A stretch of 64,000 nucleotides of DNA. Origin: Ulota crispa. Taxonomy: Eukaryota > Streptophyta > Bryopsida > Orthotrichales > Orthotrichaceae. A model generated the notes under the pieces. It ran no database searches. It saw only the letters and a list, made by a program, of their open reading frames with translations, and was not told the DNA's origin. The position numbers were made by a program, and so were the translations under genes. Below, piece after piece: positions 237-27,882 of this stretch. Within the stretch, counting starts at the first letter, position 1, and each line of letters opens with the position of its first letter. The stretch lies in NCBI GenBank assembly GCA_963920765.1, contig OY987247.1, positions 19,440,471 through 19,504,470 of the forward strand. The letters are read 5' to 3'.

Positions 237-1430
237 ATTTATCATTCCTATTTCTTAGATGATCTATTATGGATAATTTAGGCTGCTAATACATACTATC
301 TTACTAGTATGGCAACTTTTATTGTACCTGTGAAGTTTTTAAAATAAATTCTAGCCTTATGAACAAATAAGGTTACCAAATTTACTTTGAGTATACTAGA
401 GGATCTCACTTAGTCATAAGTAGATTAAATAAAACCAATAGGTTATGCTTGCTTAAAAAGCTACCTAAAAAGTACAGATTAAGCTCAGTGTATCCTACTA
501 AGCTAAACATGTATTCCAATATATATGGAATAAGCCAAGATTGGTTTTTGGGGATTTTTTAACCCATACGGTCTGAACACAAGATCAAGTGTCAAGTTGT
601 TTTTTTTTTTTAAAAGCAAAATCTATTTGCTTGCATCTCAATGGAGAAAATGAGGGGCCCAATTTCAAATTAAGTCCAAGCACCCCTTAAGCACGGGATT
701 GTTGCTATTAACGCGGGATTAGTTAAACTCTATTAGGGCTTGATCAAGCTTGCTAACCCTCGCTGCTTTGTATTTTTTGAGTCTCTTTTGCTGAATACCA
801 TTGGATACTAATGCTCTCCTTTGAGTATACTCTGAGTCTTCTGAGCATGACCTAGTTCTAAGCATGCTCTAGTTTGGGCGTGCTCAGGCGTGACAGCTGT
901 TGACTGAGCGTAGGAACTACAGCTTTTTGCTAAAAATATGGCTTCATCTTTTGCCTACTATCAGGTTTTGATTTTTTGTCTTAAAAATATTCTTTGCAGC
1001 TAACTCTTTATGGACTTGAGAGAGTGGGACAAGTTGCTTGTTGGATAGGTTTTTTATGTGAATATGATAACAAGTGATAGCAAGGCTGAGGACACCTTGC
1101 ATACGTACAAAAACAAACTAACTGTCTATTTTTGTGAGTGGCTGCAGGTGAGGCCCTTGTCATCGTAAACAATCTTAAAGACTTGCAGTAAATTTCCTTC
1201 CCTATACTCTTATTTGTCTACAATAGAAAAAAGTTTTGCATAAGTTGATAGTTTCTAGTACTAACTTCTAAGAAACTTATACAAGTTATATAAGCCTTTT
1301 TATGCATGAATAGGTATCTTGATACAAAGAGATTACTAATTTCATTGCTATATTGAGTATTGCATGGTTTTGAGAGCAATTTGTTGCTAAAAGTTTATGG
1401 TGATACTAAAAATGCATTAGAAAGGAGTAG
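237..1430. other. Interior of inverted repeat, no gene seen
   Basis: AT-rich sequence between the two inverted-repeat arms. No reading frame with recognisable protein similarity and no RNA gene was seen. It has a poly-T run near 600 and short runs of GAGTATACTCTGAG-like text near 810-850. Confidence 0.4.
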
Positions 1431-1494
1431 ATCAAAATAGCGCTCTTGAAGAAGAGATGTACCAAAAATTGTTTTTTTTTTTTTTCTGAACTTT

Positions 1495-1548
1495 TGTGTT
1501 TTGCCACGTGTCTTGACCTGCCCATGCAAGGACACGTGGCAAAACACA
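1495..1548. promoter_or_regulatory. Perfect 18-bp hairpin with a CACGTG core in each arm
   Basis: TGTGTTTTGCCACGTGTC at 1495-1512 is exactly reverse-complementary to 1531-1548, with an 18-nt loop. Each arm carries the palindromic G-box/ABRE core CACGTG, a known bZIP and bHLH site in plants. About 30 bp downstream lies a TATAAAA sequence at 1579-1585. Spacing and order resemble a compact promoter inside the right arm of the inverted repeat. That it works as a promoter is inference. Confidence 0.45.
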
Positions 1549-1555
1549 GAGTTTC

Positions 1556-1700
1556 AAAAAAAAAAAAAAAAAAAAAACTATAAAAGGCCTTCCTAACCCC
1601 TCATTTTCTCTTCCCACCCTCCCTCTAAACCCTGCACAGCTTTGTGGGGCTCCCCTTGGATGGCATTTTTTTAAATTTTAAATTAAACAAAAAAATAAAA
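1556..1700. repeat. Right arm of the inverted repeat, with TATA-like box
   Basis: It starts with a poly-A run, then CTATAAAAGG at 1578-1587, then a C/T-rich stretch, and matches the reverse complement of the left arm at 86-236. The TATAAAA therefore has a mirror copy (CCTTTTATAG) in the left arm pointing outward from the unit, while this one also points outward. Followed to about 1800 by A/T homopolymer-rich filler. Confidence 0.5.
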
Positions 1701-1979
1701 ACAAAAATAAAATTAAAAATTAAAAAAATGTTTAAAAAAGTTTTTTTTTTTTTTTTTAAGTTTTAAAAAGTTTTAAAAGTTTTAAAAAGTTAAAAACCCC
1801 ACCCACGGAGCTTTGCAAGGTTAGCTTGGACATCTAAGTTGTAGTTGGTTGCATGGAGAGTGCACTTGGTCAAGTGCAAAAATAGTTAATTGTGTGTAAA
1901 TGTGCTAAAAACACTTAGCAATGAGTACATGGAGATGTAGGCAACATAAAAGAAGACTCTAGAACAATATTTGCACTTC

Positions 1980-2815
1980 TAGAATTTACAATAGCTGCCA
2001 TTTTTATATGACTAGTGGTAGTCATTTCAACACTTGTTTATGACTCTATATAGTCAAGTTGATAAATTATATGGCTTTAATTTTAGAACTACAATTACAT
2101 TTGCCAAGACATGTTAAAAAATTATATGAATAATAGTAGTCATTGAATACTCATATTTGACTACATGTAGTTAATGGTTTAAAATAAGTGTGCTTGGAAA
2201 AGTGCATGATTCTTGTCGGAGTTGACTAAGCACTATCACATGTGATAGTTGTTGATGAATGAGTGCAAGCATATTTTATCCTACATAATTCATTATCTAA
2301 TTTAGTCATAATCTATCTATATATGACTATAAGAAAACATATTGTCTAAAATTATGACTATAAATAGTCACTGCTAATCATTATTAAGTTAAATCTAAGA
2401 TTATATACAAATTTGACTAGAATGAATTATACAATATTCAAAAAATTACTTACCATAGTCATGGTAATTATGATTTTTTTCCAAATATAGGACTAAATAC
2501 TTTCAAAATATTTTGTCTTGTACCACTGAACATGACTACATATGGTCATAACTACATGACAATAGATAGTCATATTAGTCATAAAAATATGACTATGCAT
2601 AGTCACAAGATTGAGAACTCCAAGCCAAGTTCCAATTGAGGTTCCAAACACCATTAGGAAAATCCTATTTGAAATAATTGGCCAGTCATTTGACTGCCAA
2701 TAAAATGTCCAATATGACTTGTTTGAGATGACTAGCCACTAGTCTAGTCAACTTTTGGTTTTTTGCCCACATGTAGTCATAAATGGTAGTCAAAAAGGCC
2801 CTTTTCCTTGTAGTG
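1980..2815. mobile_element. CACTA-type element terminus with subterminal repeats
   Basis: The segment ends at 2815 in CCTTTTCCTTGTAGTG, the reverse complement of CACTACAAGGAAAAGG, which is a typical CACTA (En/Spm) terminal inverted repeat. The 800 bp before it are dense in short direct and inverted copies of ATGACTA/TAGTCAT, as expected for subterminal transposase-binding repeats. The opposite terminus was not found, so only one end is supported; the element may be truncated or its other end may be degraded. Confidence 0.6.
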
Positions 2816-3635
2816 ACTCTAAATGCAGGAGTCTACCATATTAAGCTAACATCCAACCTCTAAACCTATATTTCTTGAGTACATGAGTAGAACATAATTC
2901 TAGAGAATTGCAAGCATGAATGTGCTAGCATCACAATAGTTGTTACTAAAATATATTCAATGGAAGAGAGTCTTTGTAACTATTCTCACAATGCTAATGT
3001 ACTAGCATAATTATGTTTCACAATCCTATAGGAGTTGTCAAAATTTATTTGATTATTCATATAAGTACATATGAAGATTATCAAAGACAATACAATTCCA
3101 AAAATTTCTACTTGAAACCATCTAATTTATTCTCAATTATTAAATAAAACTTTGGAATTCAAAATCGCAATATGTAAGAGGTTGATGTTGAAAACATGTT
3201 CAATGACATTTTTGTTTTATAGCTTGCACAATAATGTAGTGATTTCTAGATGTTACGTGCTAGCTTTCTTGTTTTTGTATAGGCCCATCCATAAAAAATG
3301 GCAGGAGCTTCATTGAACATGTACAAAAATAAGATTTAATTCTTGAAACATAATTGAGAGTAGCAAGAGAACAAAATTTCAATACATCTTGATGCCCTTG
3401 TAACAAATTTCATAGAGGCAAACAATATAGTGTAGAATCCATTTGACAATATTTATGCCTCAACAAGAAAGATCTTTTTCTAATGCATTCTATGGTAGGA
3501 GGAGACACTTAAAGAGGATATCTTGAACAAGGGATTTAGATGAATGCATCTAGTGATAGAGTGTCAAAGATTAATATTTATGATGATTATAACTTGCAAA
3601 ATGAATTTGACAAGCACATGGATCAATTCCACTAC
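2816..3635. other. AT-rich interval, no gene seen
   Basis: No coding similarity was recognised between the CACTA terminus and the first miniature element. It may be decayed upstream sequence of the tnp2 relic that follows. Confidence 0.35.
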
Positions 3636-3781
3636 CACTAGTAGAAAAACAGGTTCTAAATGACTAGGTGACAACAACTAAACCACAACTGCACCAACTA
3701 TACAACAACTACAAAATGACTTATGCAGTTGTGGTTTAGTTGTTGTCCCTAAGTTATTTAGGACCTGTTTTTCTACTAGTG
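3636..3781. mobile_element. 146-bp CACTA-type miniature element (MITE)
   Basis: It begins CACTAGTAGAAAAACAGGT and ends with its exact reverse complement, ACCTGTTTTTCTACTAGTG. The interior also repeats GTTGTGGTTTAGTTGTTGT in inverted form, so almost the whole unit folds back. The flanking triplets are TAC and AAC, an imperfect 3-bp duplication. It lies within or next to a decayed tnp2 sequence, so it is a later insertion. Both ends are of the CACTA class. Confidence 0.75.
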
Positions 3782-3789
3782 AACGTCCA

Positions 3790-5470
3790 GCAGTAGCTTC
3801 TTGACAATCTTGACACAAGTAACCACCTCTGCAAGGACGTATTGCCAATTGGCAAACATGCCTTGAAAGAGGAATTTTTATTGAATAAAACAAAGGCAAT
3901 GAAGATGTCATTTAAAAAGGCTATATGACATGTTTACAAAGGTGTAAATGTCCTTGTTATTTTGGCAACCATTGTCTTGATTAACATGGCATTCATACAC
4001 GGCATTAGCAATGCGTATGTGGACAAACTCATGAATTATTTATCCACATTATTGCTACCAGCTGCAAATCAGCCGCCAAAAATTCATTATGAGGCAAAAA
4101 TTGATCAAAAAATTAGGTCTAAATTCCAACATAATACATGCATGTTCTAGTAGATGTGCGTTGTTCCATGAGAGCATAGCCAAATTGATGTATTGTCCCA
4201 ATACGAATTGTGGTAAATTCCAATATGTACATGACTCAAAAAGTTATTCTTGCAAAAGCTCACTACAAGGAAAATTGTCCAAAATGACAAGAGCATGTTC
4301 AAATCAACACGGCCAAATCTACAAAAATTGTCCAATTTGACAATCTTTATCATTTTGGACACATTTAGTCAATTTGGACTTGTCAATTAGGACACAATTT
4401 CTTGTAGTAATCAGTACATTATTTTCCTCCCATCCCAAGGTGGCTTGAGCATGTATTATTCACCAGCAATTATAGAGATCCTCCAATGTCATTTAAAGCA
4501 TCCAAACAAAAATGATGAATTCATAAAGTCAATGGTTGATAGTCTAATGTGGAAGCATGCATAAGTCAAAGTAGACCTAAACTTGCTATAGAGGTGAGAA
4601 TCTAAGGTTTGGAATGTCTACAGACAAGGTGAATCCATTTGCTCATAATAATACAAGTCATTCTATATAAACAAAAACTTTGTTGAAGTCAATTTAAACT
4701 ATGTGATGTTTTTTTGCTTTTCATGTAGAAATTTGCATAGCTTAATGCAACTTTTGTGTTAAAAGCAAGAAAACATCATTTGGATTATGTTGACTACAAC
4801 AATGTTCTTTTCTAGTATATGTGGCCTATTTTAATGCTATATACAAATTGCCTCCATATTTTGTTAATAAATATTTCTTCATCAATTGAGTATTCTAGTC
4901 TTAGAGAAACTGCCTCCCATAAACAAAAACATAGATGTCTTCATATGTCCATTAATTGATGAGTTACAAGAGCTATAGGTGGGAGTGACAGCCCAAGAAT
5001 TTTCAAAGCCTCCAAGATTACAACAATTCATCCTAAGGAGTATATTGTTGTGGACAGTACTACAAGAAGAAAAATTTGTTGAAGTCTACATAACTAAATG
5101 ATATTTTCTTGCTTCTAACGCAAAAATTTGCATTATTCTTCTAGTGTAACAAACTATCTTGCATACAAATTGATATTTGGATTGTGTACACATGGATACA
5201 AAACATTCATTGTATGAGGGTTTGTAAATGAAGCTAGATGTGCTATATTGAGTAACAAATTAGACTCTTATGAAAAAGCAAAAGATAGGAAGCTTGTTTA
5301 TGGTAGTAGCAATAAGTGGACCAAAGGTTCACATCCATATCACAAAGACCTACAATTTGATGGGATGGTGGAGGAAATATCATTTTGACGAGGATGAATG
5401 TTAAACAAGAAAAAACATGTGGCAAAGAGGTTAATGCATGGTTGAGTGGCTCAAAATTGTGTCACACTAT
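3790..5470 (+). pseudogene. Decayed CACTA tnp2 transposase relic
   Basis: Translated pieces follow the order of plant tnp2 transposases. Around 3960-4090 the peptide has LLLPAANQPPKIHYEAK, matching the tnp2 segment before the zinc-ribbon-like region. Around 4150-4240 there is RCALFHESIAKLMYCP followed by a Cys, as in the CxxC region. Near 4430 there is FPPIPRW-like text, and near 5260-5370 GSHPYHKDLQFDG matches the usual HP-R-FDG motif. Frame changes and stops are frequent and a 149-bp miniature element interrupts it at 4261-4409. Function is lost. Its relation to the CACTA terminus at 2815 is unknown; they may belong to different insertions. Confidence 0.6.
4261..4409. mobile_element. 149-bp CACTA-type miniature element inside tnp2 relic
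   Basis: It starts CACTACAAGGAAAATTGTCC and ends GGACACAATTTCTTGTAGTA, imperfect inverted repeats of the CACTA class. Inside are several copies of TTGTCCAAAATGACA and its complement. The last base differs from the canonical TAGTG and no clean 3-bp duplication is visible, so this copy is older or slightly mis-bounded. The left part is distinct from the MITE at 3636, so two subfamilies are present. Confidence 0.6.
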
Positions 5471-6119
5471 CAAAAACTGCTTACACCCACTTTTCAAATG
5501 CCTAAAACATACATTGGAAATTTTCAAAAAAGAAATAAAGTTCATTGTAGAGAATTAAACTTCATTGTGACTAAATTGATGTTGTTAAGTTTTATATAAG
5601 CATTTTATGGAAGTGTGGAGGACTTTTGAAAAAACATGAGTGTGACAATTTTGTTGTCAACAAATATTTCTTTGATTTTTTTAAGATAGTTTAGTTATCA
5701 CTAAGAGAATACACTAGAATGTGATTCTAATGGGTGTTTGGGTAAAATTTTAAGAAATCATAATCTTGTTTTGTAAATGTGTATTGAATGTTTGCAAAGG
5801 ATTTTTTAATGCCTTTTTTTAACCTTAGATTTTACAAAGTCCTTTTCTTCTTTGTCTTTTTTTTACCAATTTTTTTTCAAATTGATTACTTTTCTAAATT
5901 TTAGAATTGCTTTTAACAATAAAGACATCTTGAATAACTTTCATTGATTTAAGTTTAAGCCTAAAAGCAGCACAGCCTGCAGTGGATAACCTCAACAAAG
6001 AACAAATTTAGAAACATTAAACCGTCAACTTAGGCAATGAGCCTATTAAAGCCCTAAAGAGGCTACTCAATTGCAAGGACACTTTATGCAATTACAAGTT
6101 GACACTTGAATTAAAATCC
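5471..6119. other. No recognisable feature
   Basis: AT-rich sequence between the tnp2 relic and the first TTAA-flanked terminus. No gene, RNA or structured repeat was recognised. Confidence 0.35.
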
Positions 6120-7177: not shown

Positions 7178-7181
7178 TTAA

Positions 7182-7890
7182 CCCCGAAAGGACCAAAGGC
7201 CCTTTTGGTGGACAAATGGGATTTCGGGTAGGTACCTATGGCTAAATTACTTTGCGTGATTTATTGAAACTTTTATTAAAGGTGAGGAATTCAAAGATCT
7301 ACATGGAAATGTAATTTGTTCTTCATTTTGACATTTATTGAAGAAGCTAAAAATAAATTTATGGAAAACAAGGGACCCCGGGTAGCCCAAAAATTTCTTT
7401 AAAAATTGCGTTTTTTTTCAAATAAAAATCTGAAAAAAGTTCTTTAGACTTCTATAAACGTGGGGAGCTTTAAATTATTCAATTTTGATAGTTGAGATGA
7501 AAGTTATGAGAAGTTTTAGTTTGCTGGTAGATGTGGTTTAGAGCTAAACCACACCTGCAAACTAAAACTTTTCATAACTTTCATCTCAGCTATCAAAATC
7601 AAATGATTCAAAGCTCTCCACATTTGTATAAGTCTAAAGAACCTATTTCAGATTTTTATTTGAGAAAAACACAATTTCTAAAGAAGCTTTTGGACTACCC
7701 AGGGTCCCTTGTTTTCCATAAATTTATTTTTAGCTTCTTCAATAAATGTCAGAATGAAGAACAAATTACATTCCCATGTAGATCTTTGAATTCCTCACTT
7801 TCAATAAAAGTTTCAGAAAATCACGCAAAGTAGTTAGGTACATGCTCAAAATCCCATTTGTCCCTCAAACGGACAATGGTCCTTTAGGGG
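7182..7890. mobile_element. 709-bp near-perfect palindromic element flanked by TTAA
   Basis: TTAA at 7178-7181 and again at 7891-7894 flank the unit exactly. It starts CCCCGAAAGGACCAAAGGCC and ends GGACAATGGTCCTTTAGGGG. The whole length folds on itself: arms of about 350 bp meet near 7540 with almost no spacer (GTGGTTTAG next to CTAAACCAC). The TTAA duplication and CCC...GGG ends are hallmarks of piggyBac-superfamily non-autonomous elements, though piggyBac itself has short terminal repeats, so the full-length palindrome is unusual. The apparent 100-codon reading frame inside it is a by-product of the palindrome and has no recognisable similarity. Confidence 0.8.
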
Positions 7891-7894
7891 TTAA

Positions 7895-15143: not shown

Positions 15144-15216
15144 ATATGTATATATACATATATAAACATATAGATATATATGTATATATATGTATAAATG
15201 TATATATATATATACA
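15144..15216. repeat. TA-rich microsatellite
   Basis: Imperfect TATATG/TATATA simple repeat. It abuts the hairpin end of the Helitron-like block at 15217 and may mark slippage at that terminus. Confidence 0.8.
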
Positions 15217-15653
15217 AGTGGGTAAATCCACTTACCAAGGTAAATGAATAGTGGTGAGATTTTAAGTGGAGACTCAACGTATATATCTTTTCATATCAAT
15301 CTATACTTCTTCTAATTAAAAATTATCCAATGGGGTTAAGTAATTAAATATGTCTTTTCATGTCAATCTATACCTCTTCTAGTTTTAAATTTCAGATTTA
15401 GATTTACAAAATATTCATAGGGGTTCATTTTCAATTGACTTTTTGTCTCCCTTCCTACCCCTTTGTGTTCAATTTAAAATATAAAGTAAGAGTTATTTAA
15501 TAAGGTTCATTGAGAATGTCCTTTCACCTTCCAAATATTAGGTAAAACATTGGTCACAATAAACTAAACGTTTTTTCTTTGTTTGTTAATGTTGAGGTTG
15601 GCCGGTCAAATTACCTAATGGACGAGTTATGGCCATTTTTTTATAATGCTAGA
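15217..15653 (-). mobile_element. Small non-autonomous Helitron-like block (copy A)
   Basis: Read on the minus strand it starts TCTAGCATTATAAAAAAATG and ends with a hairpin region (GGTAAAT...ATTTACC type). It is about 80-90 percent like 26049-26478 in opposite orientation and like the interrupted copy at 26524-27882. Unlike the 26049 copy, the CTAG end is not visible here, where a TA microsatellite begins. Shared internal text includes GACCGGCCAACCTCAAC and ACCTTCCAAATATTAGG. Confidence 0.55.
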
Positions 15654-16600
15654 CGAGTCTTGATTCCATTTTGCTATTGCAAAATTGTCCTAACACTTGT
15701 CTATCATAGTGGTGTGGGATTCAAGTTGGGGGATTTTGAAAAACCAAAAAGAGGAAAATTTATTAAAGAATGAGGTTGCTTCATTTAGCATAGCAGAAGT
15801 AAATTCAATGTTTCCATTTAATATAGCAGAGGTAAATGCGACGTTTCCATTTAGCATATGTAGATGAGTTGGCAACCCCATTTAGCATTTTTTTGTAGAA
15901 ATTCAACTTGAAACTTTTAGTAAAATTAAAATATCCAATGAGGTACTTTTAAGTTTAACTAACTAAAATTGAAATAAAAATAATTAATAACATCTCCATT
16001 ATTAGAGAGGGAGAGGGAGAAAATTGAACATAGAGGAGGGGGGAGGGGATTCTCTCCATTTAGCATAGCTAAATTGATTTGAAGAATATTGAGTTTCAAT
16101 TCCAAAATGAGTAAAGTCTCCAATGTGGTTCAATCCATATCTAAAATTCAAATCAATTTGTCTCATCATCTCTCCCTCCTCTTTCCTTTGAAGTTGAATT
16201 TCAATTCCAAATTGAAAAAGGTCCAATGGGTTTCCACAAAGGATGCCCTTCCACATCCAATACCCATGCCATTGTCCTTTCACTTTGCCCCTTGGCCCTC
16301 AGCCAATCACTAATTATCAAACCAACAAACACACAAACACACAAACACAAAATACACTATGGAGAATGGGCATTTTTTTATAAGGATAGACGAGTCTTGA
16401 TCTCGTTTTGCTATCGCAAAATGGTCTCATGACTCGTCTATTGTGGTGGTGTGGAATTCAAGTTGGGGGATTCAAGTAGGAACTTTATGAAATGGTCTCA
16501 TATTGGACAATTTTGTTTAAAATAGCTGCACCATGTGAAGGTAGCAATCCATGCAGCCATATTTGCTTTTTGCAAGGGATTTCAAACTTTGAGTATCGTC
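15654..16600. repeat. Dispersed Helitron-associated block (Y block, copy A)
   Basis: Follows directly on copy A of the Helitron-like block and is repeated, in the same arrangement, at 27883-28626 and partly at 25200-26048. Diagnostic text includes CCCCATTTAGCATT, TTTCAATTCCAAATTG, CCATTGTCCTTTCAC and TAATTATCAAACC. No coding similarity. It contains the hairpin at 16387-16440. Confidence 0.55.
16387..16440. repeat. 54-bp hairpin TAGACGAGTC...GACTCGTCTA
   Basis: Outer arms TAGACGAGTC and GACTCGTCTA are exact complements; an inner stem GTTTTGC/GCAAAA surrounds a TATC loop. Related but less perfect hairpins follow the GACGAGTCTTG or GATGAGTCTTG text at 15651 and 27880, while at 26512 only the first arm is retained. 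It recurs at the junction between Helitron-like blocks, consistent with a terminal structure of that family. Confidence 0.6.
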
Positions 16601-18619
16601 ATTATAGATGATTCTACCTAGGTCTTCCAATAAATCTCATGGTCAAGCTGTGCTCCAAATATGCACTGCAACAACTCCTTGTACATGACAATGGTTGTTG
16701 TTTCACCATTTTGACAATGCAGTGCCACATTCCCAACACCGGTAACTCAAGACAATGCAACATACAACTGACCATGCATGAATACGGGCTCTGGCAAATA
16801 AATGCCCACCGTTCCCATAGTCCTGCCTTGCGATTTGTTGATTATCATTGCAAATGCGAGTTGTATTGGAAATTGCCGCCTCAAAAGTGTAAACGGCCAG
16901 CAATGACCAATGGACAACGTGGTAATTCTTGGGATGTTCCATATGGTGCTTGCATGCTTACCACCAACGATTTCTGCCACAATCAAATGGCGTGCACAAC
17001 TTTGAATAATGAATTGGGTCCCATTGCATAAGCGGGAACTTGCATCTAAGTTTTGCAATAATATAACAAGTACTCCAATCTTCAATGCCGGTTGATGTGG
17101 AGGCATCCTAGCCAAGGTGATCACGTTAAGAAACTCACTTCCAATCCCCATGGCTCAATTATCTCCCGCTGCAATTGTATCTGCTGACAAAAAAAACATG
17201 CTCTTCTCCAAGCATCATCGCAGCAATCTTTGTGTTAATTTTGTTCAAGACCGTGTTTTTTTGTTGTTAAGATGGCCCAACCATTCATACATCCAAGATC
17301 TACATATTGCATAAGAAGATTTGCAAACACAATGTCAATAAGGTTTCAAAGGCTTGTGCAACGTGTAATCCCAGAGTATAGAGCAGTCTCTACTTTAGCA
17401 AATGGTGCAATGCCCACATGTGGTAGAGGGGGCTGATTCGCTTCATGAACTGTAGCTTCAATACCATCTCCAATACAAAGAATGTATTCTGCATTTGGTC
17501 AAGAATCTAGGTCTACACGCAATTGCATATATCTGTTAGTGTTAGAATATGCACATGCCTCCAAAGCATCGACCGCTTAAGGGCTGCACCAACGATTGTC
17601 GGTCGTGATCCTTGAGCCACAATAGGTGCACACTACCAAAAGTCGCCACCAAATACAATCACTTTTCCACCAAAAAGAGAGTTGGGCCGCTATAGTAAGT
17701 CTTGCAAAGTTCAATCCATTGCTTTGGCGCAATGTTTGTGCTGGGCTAGGGCCTCATCCCAATCAATAAGTTTGGCTGCACAAAGTACGTCGGCAATGTC
17801 AGATCTTGTTGAGATGCCATAGACGGAATCCCTATCAATGTCTATAGGGATCTTGAATATTGAATGTGCCGTTCGCCCACCATCCAACAAAAGAGCTGCA
17901 ATTCCAGAAGAAGCAACAACAATAGCCACGTCACCTCCTCTCCAAACAAAAGCCAGTAAGACGCTGTACACAAATGTCTTGCCAGAGCCCCCTTGTCCAT
18001 CGAGGAAAAAGACTTTGCCTTTGTCAAGGCATACAATGTCAAGAATCGATGTGATGGCCCTTTCTTGATCAATGTTTAGGAGAGGTAGGCTTCTCTCCAC
18101 CAAGGTCTGCAGCACAATCCTGTTGTAATTAAACTCCTCTGCTAGGTTTGCATTGACGCGCTCGACTCCCAAAGGTGCAACCGCCAAGGGCATTTGCGAA
18201 AAGTCTTGCAAGCTTTTATTTGCCAACACTAGTCTTGCATCCATAAGCAAAAGGGAATCATTATACGCCTCTTTGACAGTCTTGCCCTCATTTCTTCTCC
18301 GATAGCGTGTGTCATGGGATATTTCATCTTGATACCTCTCCCACAATACTTCCGGATGCAAAGGGAAGCAAAACAATAATAGAATGACAAATAAATTTAG
18401 CAATCTCTTTGCGTTTTGATCAACGCACGCCTCACGCATGCATGCATCCCACTTCAAGTTGTCTTGCAACAAACCCAATGCAGCGCAAGCAGATTGAAAG
18501 GTTGGATACACATTGCCATCTACTATCCATGGATTTTCAAATGACGCTGCTCCTGGTACGATGGTTAATATCAACCGTAGGTAGAATCGCTCACTCGCTG
18601 TTGCGTGAACAAAATACAC
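16600..18619 (-). pseudogene. Helitron PIF1-type helicase part
   Basis: This continues the Rep frame: YFVHATASERFYLR is the usual junction, GQGGSGKT at 17975-17998 is the Walker A (P-loop), and LIDWDEA is the Walker B. After a stop at 17711 the same frame reads TLQDLL and FGGKVIVFGGDF. The C-terminal helicase motifs NKSQGRT and VGIYLPEPVFMHGQLYVALS lie at 17151-16747. The family unwinds DNA during rolling-circle transposition. The region between about 17640 and 17151 is poorly preserved. Several in-frame stops sit where the family consensus has arginine, fitting CGA-to-TGA decay. Confidence 0.85.
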
Positions 18620-20220
18620 CCAATTGACAGCTTCTTTGCCGCTCTGAAGTGCAAACCAAGCTTTTTCCCTGCATTTCCATATGTGTTAGCGTGGGAAATC
18701 AATGTAAAGTACATGTCGTGAATCTTCATTTTTTGCATTATATGTAAAATACCTTGTCAATGTTGTTCTCTAGGTCGCAGCGCGTTCTGCAATTGCTGCC
18801 AAGTCTTCTTGAGCATTGAATAATACGTTATGTTGTCCTAGAAATTGAACTCCCAATTGTATAACAGGAGGCCACTCCATATGTTTCTTAAACAACAACA
18901 ACAAATCTACAGCTTTTGCAGCACTCAAATATTGTGCATCGATATATTGCTTGATCTTGTTTGTTGGTCTATTGACCTCCACTGCTGTGCGGTCTTGTCC
19001 TTTGTAGATGTACTTGAACAGATACTTCACACTCCAAATCCTTGTAGAAACCTCCACATTTATGTGGGCATTGAACTTCTTGGTCAAATAGAGGTTGTGA
19101 GGTATCACCCACCAATTGTCATATACAAATCCACCTGGGGGTTTTTGGAACGTACAACCGTTGTTGCAGTGTTGATACACAACGTATCCATCTTCTCCTT
19201 GTGTTGTCTCTTTGGAAAATGAGCACGGATAACGTTTTTTGCAACGACCATCCACCATGCAACGGGCATTTAGATACTCCACACCACAAGGTCCATGTAG
19301 AAGGCACTTGGTAACCTTTGCATAGAGTTTTACATTATCCTTCAAAGGCAGCTCAGCTGAAACCAAACATTCAATGTTGTCCATTGTTGTCACCTTTTGT
19401 GCATGAGGAAAAACCAACAGCAAATGAATGTGCGGCAAGCCTTGTTTTTGATATTCTCTTGTCCAAATGTTGCCCACAACTTGTGCAAACCATCCCATCT
19501 CTACCAATCCTCTCAAAAAAGTCTTGGTCTTCATCCAAAATACTCAAGCGACCAATTATGGGCGATCCGCAGGCGTCTGACCTTGTTGAAGTTTGGAAAT
19601 AACTTCTAGCCAATTGGGATTGCACATAAATGTTAAGAACACGTTGGGTGTGCCCATTGTATGAACAATGGCCATAGCATCTTGATATGTCTGCATCATA
19701 AACTGAGGGGATATAGGAAAATTGGTAGGCAAAATAACTCTACAACCAGCTTGAGTTAAATCAACCCCATTGTCTTGCTGCAACATGTCTACCAATCTTT
19801 GGTACAATTCAGCCCAAAGTAGTGCTTGATTGTGGCTCAAATAGTTGAGCGTATTCTGCTCCATTTTGGCAGCAACGTCAAAAATTTTCTTATTTAAATA
19901 GTCGCCCTCCAAACTGTAATGTAGACAGCTCTCTGGTAAAATGCAATCTCTGTGCATAAAATGCACTCATTATGACTATATGTTGAGCTTGTCCCTTGTT
20001 GTTCTGTAGATGGATATTCTCAGACCATCCATTTTCTCCTGCCAAGAATAACAATGGATATTGCAAAGGATCATACGATGGTGCTAACTCATTCATTTGT
20101 AACAAACTGCCTTCATGTCGTTGTTGTACATTGATATCTCAATTTCCAACCTCTCTTGGTTCTCCGAAGATGATCATAGCAACTTTGTCGGCACTTAGTG
20201 CATTGTATCAATGTGGATCT
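18620..20220 (-). pseudogene. Helitron Rep nuclease part (Helitron-like N domain, HUH motif)
   Basis: About 20105-19890 encodes SYDPLQYPLLFLAGENGW, the conserved entry to the Helitron-like N domain. About 19966-19556 carries GCRVILPTNFPISPQFMMQ and NVFLTFMCNPNW. From 19534 the frame continues with EYQKQGLPHIHLLLVFP, where HIH at 19424-19432 is the metal-binding HUH motif. About 18990 encodes VKYLFKYIYKG, the YxxKY tyrosine motif used to cut and rejoin DNA strands. Stops interrupt the frame near 19557, 19545, 18771 and 18699, and the frame changes near 19950, so the copy is inactive. Catalytic residues themselves are intact. Confidence 0.85.
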
Positions 20221-22715: not shown

Positions 22716-24130
22716 TTTTGAATTATGGATTATTTGATCTTAAACATTGGTTCCTTACATGTACTTTTTTAGTATTTGGATTTTACTTTTTTACTTTTTT
22801 GAACAAAATTTGTGATTATTTGATCTTCACTCCTAAAGGACCATTGTCCGTTTGGAGGACAAATGGGATTTTGGGCATGTACCTATTGCTAAACTACTTT
22901 CCGTGATTTTCTAAAACTTTTATTGAAAGTGAGGAATTCAAAGATCTACATGGAAATGTAATTTTTTCTTCATTTTGACAGTTATTGAAGAAGCTAAAAA
23001 TGAATTTATGGAAAACATGGGACTTTGGGCAGCCCAAAAACTTCTTCAAAAATTGCATTTTTTTCAAATAAAAATCTGAAATAGGTTCTTTAGACTTATA
23101 CAGACATGGGGAGCTTTGAATCATTCAATTTTGATGGATGAGATAAAAGTTATGAGAAGTTTTAGTTTGCGGGTAGTTGTATTTTCAAGAGAAACTACAC
23201 CTACCCGTAAACTAAAACTTCTCATAACTTTCATCTCATCTATCCGAATTGAATGATTCAAAGCTCTGCATGTCTATATAAGTTTGAAGAACCTATTTCA
23301 GATTTTTATTTGAAAAAAATGCAATTTTTGAAGAAGTTTTTGGGCTGCATGGAGTTCCTTGTTTTCTATAAATTCATTTTTAGCTTCTTCAATAAATTTT
23401 GGAATGAAGAAAAAATTACATTCCCACATAGATTTTTGAATTCCTCACCTTCAATAAAAGTTTCAAAAAATCACACAAAATAGTTTAGCCATTGGTACAT
23501 GCCCAAAATCCCATTTGTCCCCCAAAAGGGCCCTTGGTCCTTTGGAGGTTTAATATTGGTTCCTTGCATGTGCTTTTTTAGTTTTTAGATTTTTCTTTCT
23601 TACTCCTTTGAACAATTATTCGGTAATTTTATAATGATTGACATATTCTTTGTATTTGTATCTTTGAACAAACTTTTATCTTCCAATTTTTTAATTTTTT
23701 TTTCATAGATTTTGTCCATTTCTCTTTCAGATTTTTTTTTTTTTAAAATTATTGGTTATTTGATCCTGAATATTGGTTCATTAGATGTGCTTTTTAGTAT
23801 TTAGATTTTTCTTTTTTACTTTTTTGAAGAAATGTTTAGTAATTATAGATATAGATTTTACATATCCTTTGATTTTGTATCTTTGAAGTTTGAACAAATT
23901 TTTAGATTTTGTATCTTTAAAGAATTTTTTTATCTTCCAATTCTCTTTTTCTTAGACTTTGTCCATTTCTCTTTCAGATTTTTTTTTTTTTAAATTATTG
24001 ATTGTTTGATCTTAAATATTGTTTCCTTTTTTGATTTTTACTTTAAAAAAAAAAAATTGAACAAATGTTCAGCAATTATATAATATTTGAAATATCCTTT
24101 TCATTTTGTATCTTTGTTTTAATTTTTTTT
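22716..24130. repeat. Tandem array of about 220-240 bp units
   Basis: Each unit has TTTGATC(TTAA or CTGA), ATATTGGTTC, a T-rich stretch with TTTAGATTTTTC, then TTTGTATCTTTG and CCATTTCTCTTTCAG. Unit starts are visible near 22730, 23553, 23760 and 24005. One junction is split by the palindromic element 22830-23549, so about four units remain. Confidence 0.65.
22830..23549. mobile_element. 720-bp palindromic TTAA-type element inside the tandem array
   Basis: Begins CTCCTAAAGGACCATTGTCC and ends GGCCCTTGGTCCTTTGGAGG plus one T, with arms of about 350 bp meeting near 23190 (GTAGTTGTATTT/GAAACTACACC region). The right flank is TTAA (23550-23553) and the left flank TTCA (22826-22829), a one-base change. 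Neighbouring tandem units show the uninterrupted sequence GATCTTAAACATTGG or GATCTTAAATATTG, which locates the insertion at a TTAA. It is 80-90 percent alike to 7182-7890. Confidence 0.8.
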
Positions 24131-26048: not shown

Positions 26049-26478
26049 TCTAACATTATAGAAAAAATGGCCATAAAACTTGTAATTTGACCGGCCAACC
26101 TCAACACTAACAAACAAACAAAAAGTTTGGTCTATTGTGACTGGTGTTTTACCTAATATTTGGAAGGTGAAAGGACATTCTCAACAAACCTTATTAAATA
26201 ACTCTTACTTTATATTTTAAATTGAACACAAAGGGATAGGAAGGGAGACAAAAAGAAAATTGAAATGAACCCCTATGAATACTTTTTAAATTAAAATCTC
26301 AAATTTAAAACTAAAAGAGGTATAGATCGACATGAAATGACATGTTTCATTAATGAGCCCCATTGGATAATTTTTGATTAGAAGAGGTATAGATTGACAT
26401 GAAAAAACATATACGTTGAGTCTCCACTTAAAATCTCACCACTATTCATTTACCATGGTAAATGGGTTTACCAACTAG
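26049..26478 (+). mobile_element. 430-bp non-autonomous Helitron (copy C)
   Basis: It starts TCTAACATTATAG after an A and ends GGTAAATGGGTTTACCAACTAG before a T (quoted in part: GGTTTACCAACTAG). Helitrons insert between A and T, start with TC and end in CTRR after a short hairpin, and all of these are met. The hairpin GGTAAA/TTTACC is immediately before the end, closer than the usual 10-12 bp. There is no coding capacity. Copies A and B in opposite orientation confirm that this is a defined repeat. Confidence 0.65.
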
Positions 26479-26523: not shown

Positions 26524-27882
26524 TGTAAACCCGTTTACCCAGGTAAATGAATAGTGGTGAGATTTTAAGTGGGGACTCAACGTATATATCTTTTCATATC
26601 AATCTATACTTCTTCTAATCAAAAATTATCCAATGGGGTTCATTAATTATATATGTCTTTTCATGTCAATCTATACCTCTTCCAGTTTTAAGTTTCAAAT
26701 TTAAATTTACAAAATATTCATAGGGGTTCATTTCAATTGCCTTTTTGTCCTACCCCTTTATGTTCAATTTAAAATAAAAAGTAAGAGCTATTTCATAAAG
26801 TTCATTGAGAATGTCCTTTCACCTTCCAAACATTAGGTAAAACACCAATCACAATAGATCAAAATTTTTTTCTTTGTTTGTTAATCCCTAAGGGACCAAG
26901 CCATTTTTCTATGAAAAACATAGAAAACTGCCACTTTTGGGAAGCAAGTACAATGGTAAGAAAAAAAGGTTTTTACAAGAATTCAACCATAAGATCTTAT
27001 AGTAGACTACAAGAGGTACATGTGGTAAAAAATCAGCTCAATCTACACAAAAATGAGTGAGATATTTACATTTGAATTGCAAAAATAAAGTTTTTTTTGC
27101 TACTTCCTGGAAATTTCAAAAGGCTTTCACCACTCTTAGATCAAAAAAATTACTCTACACAAAGTTGAGGTTTATTTTTCTCATGTAGGAAACCAAGTTA
27201 GGTATGTGTCAAAGAATTTTCAAATCAATTGGAACTATACAACACATGGGAAAAAATAGTAAGTAAAAAGAAGTAGAGAATGAGTCAAAACACTAAATTG
27301 TTGAGAATTTATTTATTAAAATGAAAAATGCAAATCCTAACGGCTATAATGTTGTGATAAACAATCTGCATCCTTTGGTTTTGTTTTTTTTTCCAAAATA
27401 ATGAAAAGTAAGTAAAATAAAGGACTTTGGAAAAGTGAAAGTTTATTTTAGAGTCAAGAATCTAAAACTACCCGCAAATAAAAACTCCTCATAACTTTCA
27501 TCTCATCTATCAAAATTGAATGATTTAAAGCTCCACACATCTATATAAGTCTAAAGAACCTATTTCAGATTTATATTTGAAAAAAATGGAATTTTTAAAG
27601 AAGTTTTTGGTTGCCCAAGCAGCAGTATTTTCTAGATTTTCATGCATAACTTCTTCAATAAATGTCAGAATGAAGAAAAAATTACATTCCCACGTACATC
27701 TATGAACTCCTCACCTTCAATAAAAGTTTGAAAAAATCACACAAAGTAGTTTAGCTGTAGGTACATGTCCAAAATCACAAATGTTACCCAAATTGACAAT
27801 GGTCCTTTAGGGGTTATTGTTGAGGTTGGCCGGTCAAATTACCCAATGAACAAGTTGTGGCCATTTTTTTTATAATGCTAGA
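26524..27882 (-). mobile_element. Helitron-like block (copy B), interrupted by a TTAA element
   Basis: Homologous to copy A. On the minus strand it starts TCTAGCATTATAAAAAA at 27882 and ends in the GTAAACCCGTTTAC hairpin near 26526. A 929-bp insertion at 26885-27813 splits it. Without the insertion it would be about 430 bp, as copies A and C are. Confidence 0.6.
26885..27813. mobile_element. 929-bp TTAA-type element nested in a Helitron block
   Basis: The flanks are TTAA (26881-26884) and TTAT (27814-27817). Copy A of the host repeat reads TTTGTTTGTTAATGTTGAGG without interruption, so the target was TTAA and one copy has since mutated. Ends are TCCCTAAGGGACCA and TGGTCCTTTAGGGG, an inverted repeat of about 14 bp. 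The right 350 bp is the same sequence as one arm of the palindromic copies; the left 550 bp is different, unique sequence. This looks like a non-palindromic relative, possibly closer to the parental layout. No transposase coding sequence was recognised. Confidence 0.75.

Follow-up and report, generated by a model that had tools for sequence, protein, structure and literature searches.

The window, by which we mean the whole 64,000-nucleotide stretch of DNA analysed here, contains a 929-bp element that splits a repeat found intact elsewhere in the same window (15578-15597). Two palindromic relatives of the element also lie in the window, and the coordinates of all these features are given in Table 1. 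Further observations concern the surroundings. Helitron-like pieces were found on the minus strand at 17711-19534, one frame being a PIF1 helicase and another matching Helitron_like_N marginally, and an MCAfunc domain protein is encoded in the window. One contig of the same assembly carries an intact rbcL frame, and the frame adjoining it is presumably accD. These genes mark the host as a plant, taken here to be a land plant.

Table 1. Positions in the window of the inserted element, its parts, its empty site and its palindromic relatives
Feature	Positions	Strand	Remarks
Non-autonomous element (MITE), 929 bp	26885..27813	+	6.5% from 38-copy consensus
Left target-site duplication TTAA	26881..26884	.	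Flanks, joined-flank alignment, copy comparison
Right target-site duplication TTAT	27814..27817	.	One base off TTAA; TTAA in most other copies
Left terminal inverted repeat TCCCTAAGGGACCA	26885..26898	+	Consensus CCCCTAAAGGACCA
Right terminal inverted repeat TGGTCCTTTAGGGG	27800..27813	-	
Left arm	26881..27245	-	Homologous to 3' arm of three piggyBac transposase loci; window copy 71-74%, consensus 75-78%
Middle stretch	27246..27462	+	Counterpart absent in the parents and palindromes compared, except a C9 match extending to 27328
Right arm	27463..27816	+	Common to palindromic relatives; outer ~172 bp match putative 5' terminus of C9 parent
Empty site, single TTAA of uninterrupted host repeat	15586..15589	+	
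Palindromic relative	7182..7890	.	Both halves match right arm; TTAA at 7178-7181 and 7891-7894
Second palindromic relative	22830..23548	.	Both halves match right arm; flanks now TTCA and TTTA

The element is a derived insertion

The empty-site string of the host repeat at 15578-15597 has a chance expectation of 0.06, and a copy with one mismatch lies at 26099-26118 on the minus strand. The initial annotation had placed the uninterrupted copy at 15573-15600; the copy exists, but its coordinates are the narrower ones given here. When the two flanks of the element were joined, they aligned to 15203-15820 with 88% identity over 621 columns, with gaps elsewhere and none at the junction. In a genome-wide search with the intact host repeat, the insertion point was uninterrupted in all 40 main matches (the best 40 of 204 candidates, the query included). 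Since the joined flanks align without a gap at the junction and the host repeat runs through this point, the insertion is the derived state. The 929-bp insertion, its intact counterpart within the window, the TTAA and TTAT flanks and both ends are thus as that annotation had described them.

Copies of the element and their target site

Searching the genome of origin with the window element returned 41 matches. At least 40 of these, the element itself among them, are near full length, and the other near-full-length copies were 86-90% identical to it. We took 39 further copies with their flanks, giving 40 loci with the window, and located both ends in 38; L012 and L042, which had no located left end, were left out of the flank count. 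TTAA was present on both sides in 26 of the 38 copies, on one side in 9 and on neither in 3, which bears out the expectation that genome copies would carry TTAA at both ends. Each of the columns -4 to -1 and +1 to +4 agreed with TTAA in 33 or more of the 38 copies, symmetrically on both sides, and columns -5 and +5 were mixed. These four conserved bases, TTAA, argue against a duplication of TTA or TA.

Empty sites were also found elsewhere, as had been predicted. For a second insertion (L036), the joined flanks gave 40 main matches among those listed, and all 40 crossed a single TTAA at 94-99% identity. The joined flanks of four other insertions gave, among the matches listed, two partial matches at 83-85% for L026 and none for the remaining three, because all 40 scored candidates fell on L036.

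The consensus of the 38 copies is 922 bp long and has a perfect 14-bp terminal inverted repeat, CCCCTAAAGGACCA, that is, short terminal inverted repeats starting with a run of C. The 18-mer TTAACCCCTAAAGGACCA, which is TTAA followed by CCCCTAAAGGACCA, occurred 7,555 times in the genome (3,781 forward and 3,774 reverse); its reversed control did not occur. The median divergence of the copies from their consensus was 6.1% (4.4-8.4%), and the commonest changes were C>T (446) and G>A (425). Judged by these sequences, the family does not look freshly active.

The ends also occur in pairs. At 111 places, two ends (at most 2 mismatches) stood back to back around one TTAA, for example at C2:31844403-31844434, and the control gave 0. 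Insertion of piggyBac elements into one another's TTAA would be expected to produce such pairs, among which CCCCTAAATGCCCA-type ends recur.

The palindromic relatives share the right ~350 bp of the window element. Each consists of two inverted copies of the right arm, which is 85-89% identical to the consensus. Compared with the transposase loci, the palindromes gave no match except to the C9 5' end described below.

piggyBac transposases in the genome

The piggyBac transposase domain PF13843 gave 120 matches above the cut-off in the genome (best E 1.3e-73), a few of which are two pieces of one gene. The same domain was absent from 14 control genomes, which include bacteria and archaea, with no plant known among them. 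Most of the 120 matches contain in-frame stops, and ten are free of them. Four frames from three loci (L068, L069 and L070) matched PF13843 and no other Pfam family. The L070 transposase aligned with the piggyBat and piggyBac chains (E 3.6e-18 and 6.6e-16, respectively), and the aspartates were aligned; we take these to be the catalytic D268, D346 and D447. Pairwise DNA comparison of the 20 best loci gave a match longer than 150 bp in only 4 of 190 pairs, in one case outside the gene, indicating that there are many families. A hand count of in-frame stops in the 20 best copies (L048-L067) gave 38 TAG, 25 TGA and 11 TAA, and the excess of TAG and TGA fits C-to-T decay of methylated plant DNA.

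We then looked for the ends of these transposase-bearing elements. In the 20 best loci with 1.5-kb flanks, neither the ends of the window element (at most 3 mismatches in 18) nor a TTAA-flanked 14-bp inverted pair was found, because the ends lie further out. GGG-TTAA occurred 1.3-3 kb 3' of the transposase genes in 13 of the first 20 loci (15 sites) and in 7 of the next 8 (10 sites). In the opposite orientation, used as a control, it was found in 4 of 20 and 3 of 8 loci, and the 64-kb window holds 4 sites of each orientation. End pairing was compared in the 12 loci with both sides available. The ends of L051 paired exactly, those of L048, L052, L053 and L066 paired well by eye, those of L055 and L067 loosely and those of L049 with 3 mismatches. 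L050, L062, L064 and L065 had no end pair in range; the 5' end of L065, which is the C9 locus, appeared after extension. Elements with placeable ends measured roughly 5-8.5 kb. One of them, at L095/L051/L075 (C5:10869739), has two identical 14-bp ends, CCCCTAAATGCCTA, with TTAA on both sides.

Several candidates were set aside. The L070 candidate element (5.66 kb, 295-5950), with ends CCCATTAAGGATCA and CCCTTTAAGGACCG and flanks TTAA/TCAA, is a distant relative and not the parent. Beside other transposases, in L071, L110 and L111, arm-like matches ran in the wrong orientation and were excluded, and those in L092, L105 and L108 were taken as separate or neighbouring MITE copies. The match in L074 (beside L050) was in the right orientation but weak (68% over 268 bp) and was left out.

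Three transposase loci share a 3' terminal arm with the element

The initial annotation had suggested that longer relatives with these ends would carry a DDD-type piggyBac transposase, and such relatives were found at three loci: C6 (L115), C9 (L065, L089, L101 and L116) and C5 (L064, L088 and L100). Their transposases matched PF13843 with E values of 1.5e-61 to 5.7e-63. With the motif patterns used here, C5 and C6 showed all three D-D-D motifs, and C9 showed the first one only. By its PF13843 match and the motifs of C5 and C6, the partner transposase belongs to the DDE_Tnp_1_7 type and has the three catalytic aspartates. All three domains contain in-frame stops, and an intact transposase was not found in this lineage.

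The three loci have a 3' arm in common (C6-C9, 78% over 741 bp; C6-C5, 73% over 656 bp; C9-C5, 72% over 531 bp), which reaches the same terminal TTAA in each. Its last ~360 bp match positions 1 to 351-363 of the family consensus at 75-78% (E 1e-56 to 5e-70). As this arm lies 3' of the gene at all three loci, a MITE that happened to land nearby is an unlikely explanation. At three further places, C8:2246063, C4:11552984 and C5:24209085, a homologous transposase match is followed ~0.3-1.1 kb downstream by the inner part of the arm. The C6 locus ends in CGGTCCTTTAGGGG followed by TTAA, one mismatch from the consensus end. This bears on a further proposal of the initial annotation, namely that the left 550 bp of the element are unlike the palindromes and may be closer to the parent. 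The left part does match the 3' arm of the parents, but it extends over ~363 bp and not 550.

In its 5' part, the C6 parent seems to be broken by the terminus of another piggyBac element (GAGCGCTCAAGGG followed by TTAA; L115 near 4707, C6rc 1795). Another transposase match lies just upstream of it, at C6:12304000-12305067.

A probable opposite terminus was seen at one locus. Upstream of the C9 transposase, TTAA is followed by CCCCTAAAGGACCG and then by ~172 bp at 83% identity to the right arm. Counting both termini, the C9 locus spans 8,522 bp (C9:12440864-12449385), bounded by TTAA at each end. For C5 and C6, the sequence examined did not reach a 5' terminus; the 3' arm is shared with three loci, and a probable 5' arm was seen at one. 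Between the C9 5' terminus and the transposase domain lie 5.6 kb that include at least one other repeat, so this terminus could be a separate fragment. A search with the C9 5' region did not confirm this end, because it was dominated by another high-copy repeat of ~380 bp, to which 39 of the 40 matches listed belong, besides the match to the region itself. From this single locus, it is likely that the terminus belongs to the transposase element and links it to the right arm, and the right arm of the window element is probably the 5' arm of the parent.

Origin of the element

The piggyBac assignment made in the initial annotation is supported by the TTAA in the copies and by the PF13843 loci with a matching 3' arm. 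The duplication of TTAA, the empty sites, the 3' arm and end common to the element and the transposase loci, and the catalytic motifs in two of these loci all agree with it. The element is almost certainly a non-autonomous piggyBac-superfamily MITE in a plant nuclear genome, derived by internal deletion from a larger piggyBac transposon. It would have kept both termini and arms of that transposon and lost the gene for the transposase. The enzyme would then be supplied from another place in the genome; it would bind to the arms, cleave at the 14-bp CCCC...GGGG ends and insert the element into TTAA, duplicating the TTAA. Mobilisation would thus occur in trans, and excision may be seamless. We infer that the simplest history starts from one kind of parent, internal deletion giving the window family and arm doubling giving the palindromes. 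Against the reading as a piggyBac MITE stand the in-frame stops in all three transposases of the matching lineage, the distance of the C9 5' terminus from its gene, the middle stretch, which is without a clear counterpart in the parents, and the copies with TTAA on one side (9 of 38) or without any (3 of 38).

We considered three alternatives. The element could be a chimera, with a left arm from the C5/C6/C9 lineage and a right arm from another piggyBac family with the same 14-bp end, brought together by recombination or by abutting insertions. The palindromes match the right arm only, the parents compared do not match the palindromes save at the C9 5' end, and the 111 back-to-back pairs would provide abutting ends. 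However, both arms occur at the C9 locus, ordered and oriented as expected and flanked by TTAA at either end, and we regard a chimera as unlikely. A MITE of another TTAA-using superfamily is very improbable. Kolobok and Sola3 also use TTAA, and the duplication by itself does not separate these superfamilies, but the left arm is common to three independent loci with a PF13843 transposase, and the DDD motifs are in the piggyBac order. The chance is smaller still, practically negligible, that this is a PIF/Harbinger (TTA/TAA) or Tc1/mariner (TA) MITE whose fourth base is part of the element: the right flank TTAT of the window copy fits TTA or TA, but T at -4 (35 of 38) and A at +4 (33 of 38) show roughly the conservation of the inner bases (34 to 38), next to mixed columns at -5 and +5, and the empty sites carry TTAA once.

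Beyond the internal-deletion derivative itself, we consider it probable that piggyBac is a major and long-lived superfamily in this genome. It would comprise many divergent transposase families, thousands of MITE-type ends and elements nested in each other's TTAA, with two routes from parent to MITE, one by internal deletion keeping both arms and one through one-arm palindromes.

Comparison with known systems

C-run terminal inverted repeats are the rule in the piggyBac superfamily, and the group is known mainly from animals. In the text available to us, PiggyBac is one of seven superfamilies of angiosperm MITEs in one review (PMC10004981), and a second mentions it, in connection with plants, as a superfamily of DNA elements (PMC10794571). 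Excerpts of further papers describe piggyBac as occasional in plant genomes, with red algae as the example and plant studies remaining limited (PMC12732532), or name plants among its hosts (PMC10140906, PMC8086355). The view that piggyBac is not well documented in plants is thus fair, but the superfamily is already on the angiosperm MITE list in the excerpted review (PMC10004981). We found no described angiosperm piggyBac MITE family with transposase-bearing partners in our searches of an open-access library, and we do not claim that none is in print. piggyBac MITEs in plants are already known as a kind; this family is unusually well resolved, with its parents visible.

Herein, one plant genome combines many piggyBac families with a high-copy MITE family tied to transposase-bearing relatives. 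It offers a test bed for the persistence of piggyBac in plants and for the origin of a MITE from its parent, and TTAA-flanked repeats of plants may deserve re-annotation.

Within the genome, the palindromic MITEs have the same right arm as the window element and 14-bp ends with 0 to 2 changes; they differ from it in having one arm doubled in inverted orientation and no left arm. The angiosperm PiggyBac MITEs, in the excerpted review (PMC10004981), are likewise short, gene-less and assigned to piggyBac, a likeness by description alone, with no family named. With the piggyBac superfamily as represented by T. ni piggyBac (6x67) and Myotis piggyBat (9c0f), the element shares the TTAA duplication and the C-run termini, and its partners carry a DDE_Tnp_1_7 transposase of the D-D-D type. 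In contrast to these two systems, the host is a plant, and the transposase-bearing elements with placeable ends are roughly 5-8.5 kb long and mostly contain stops.
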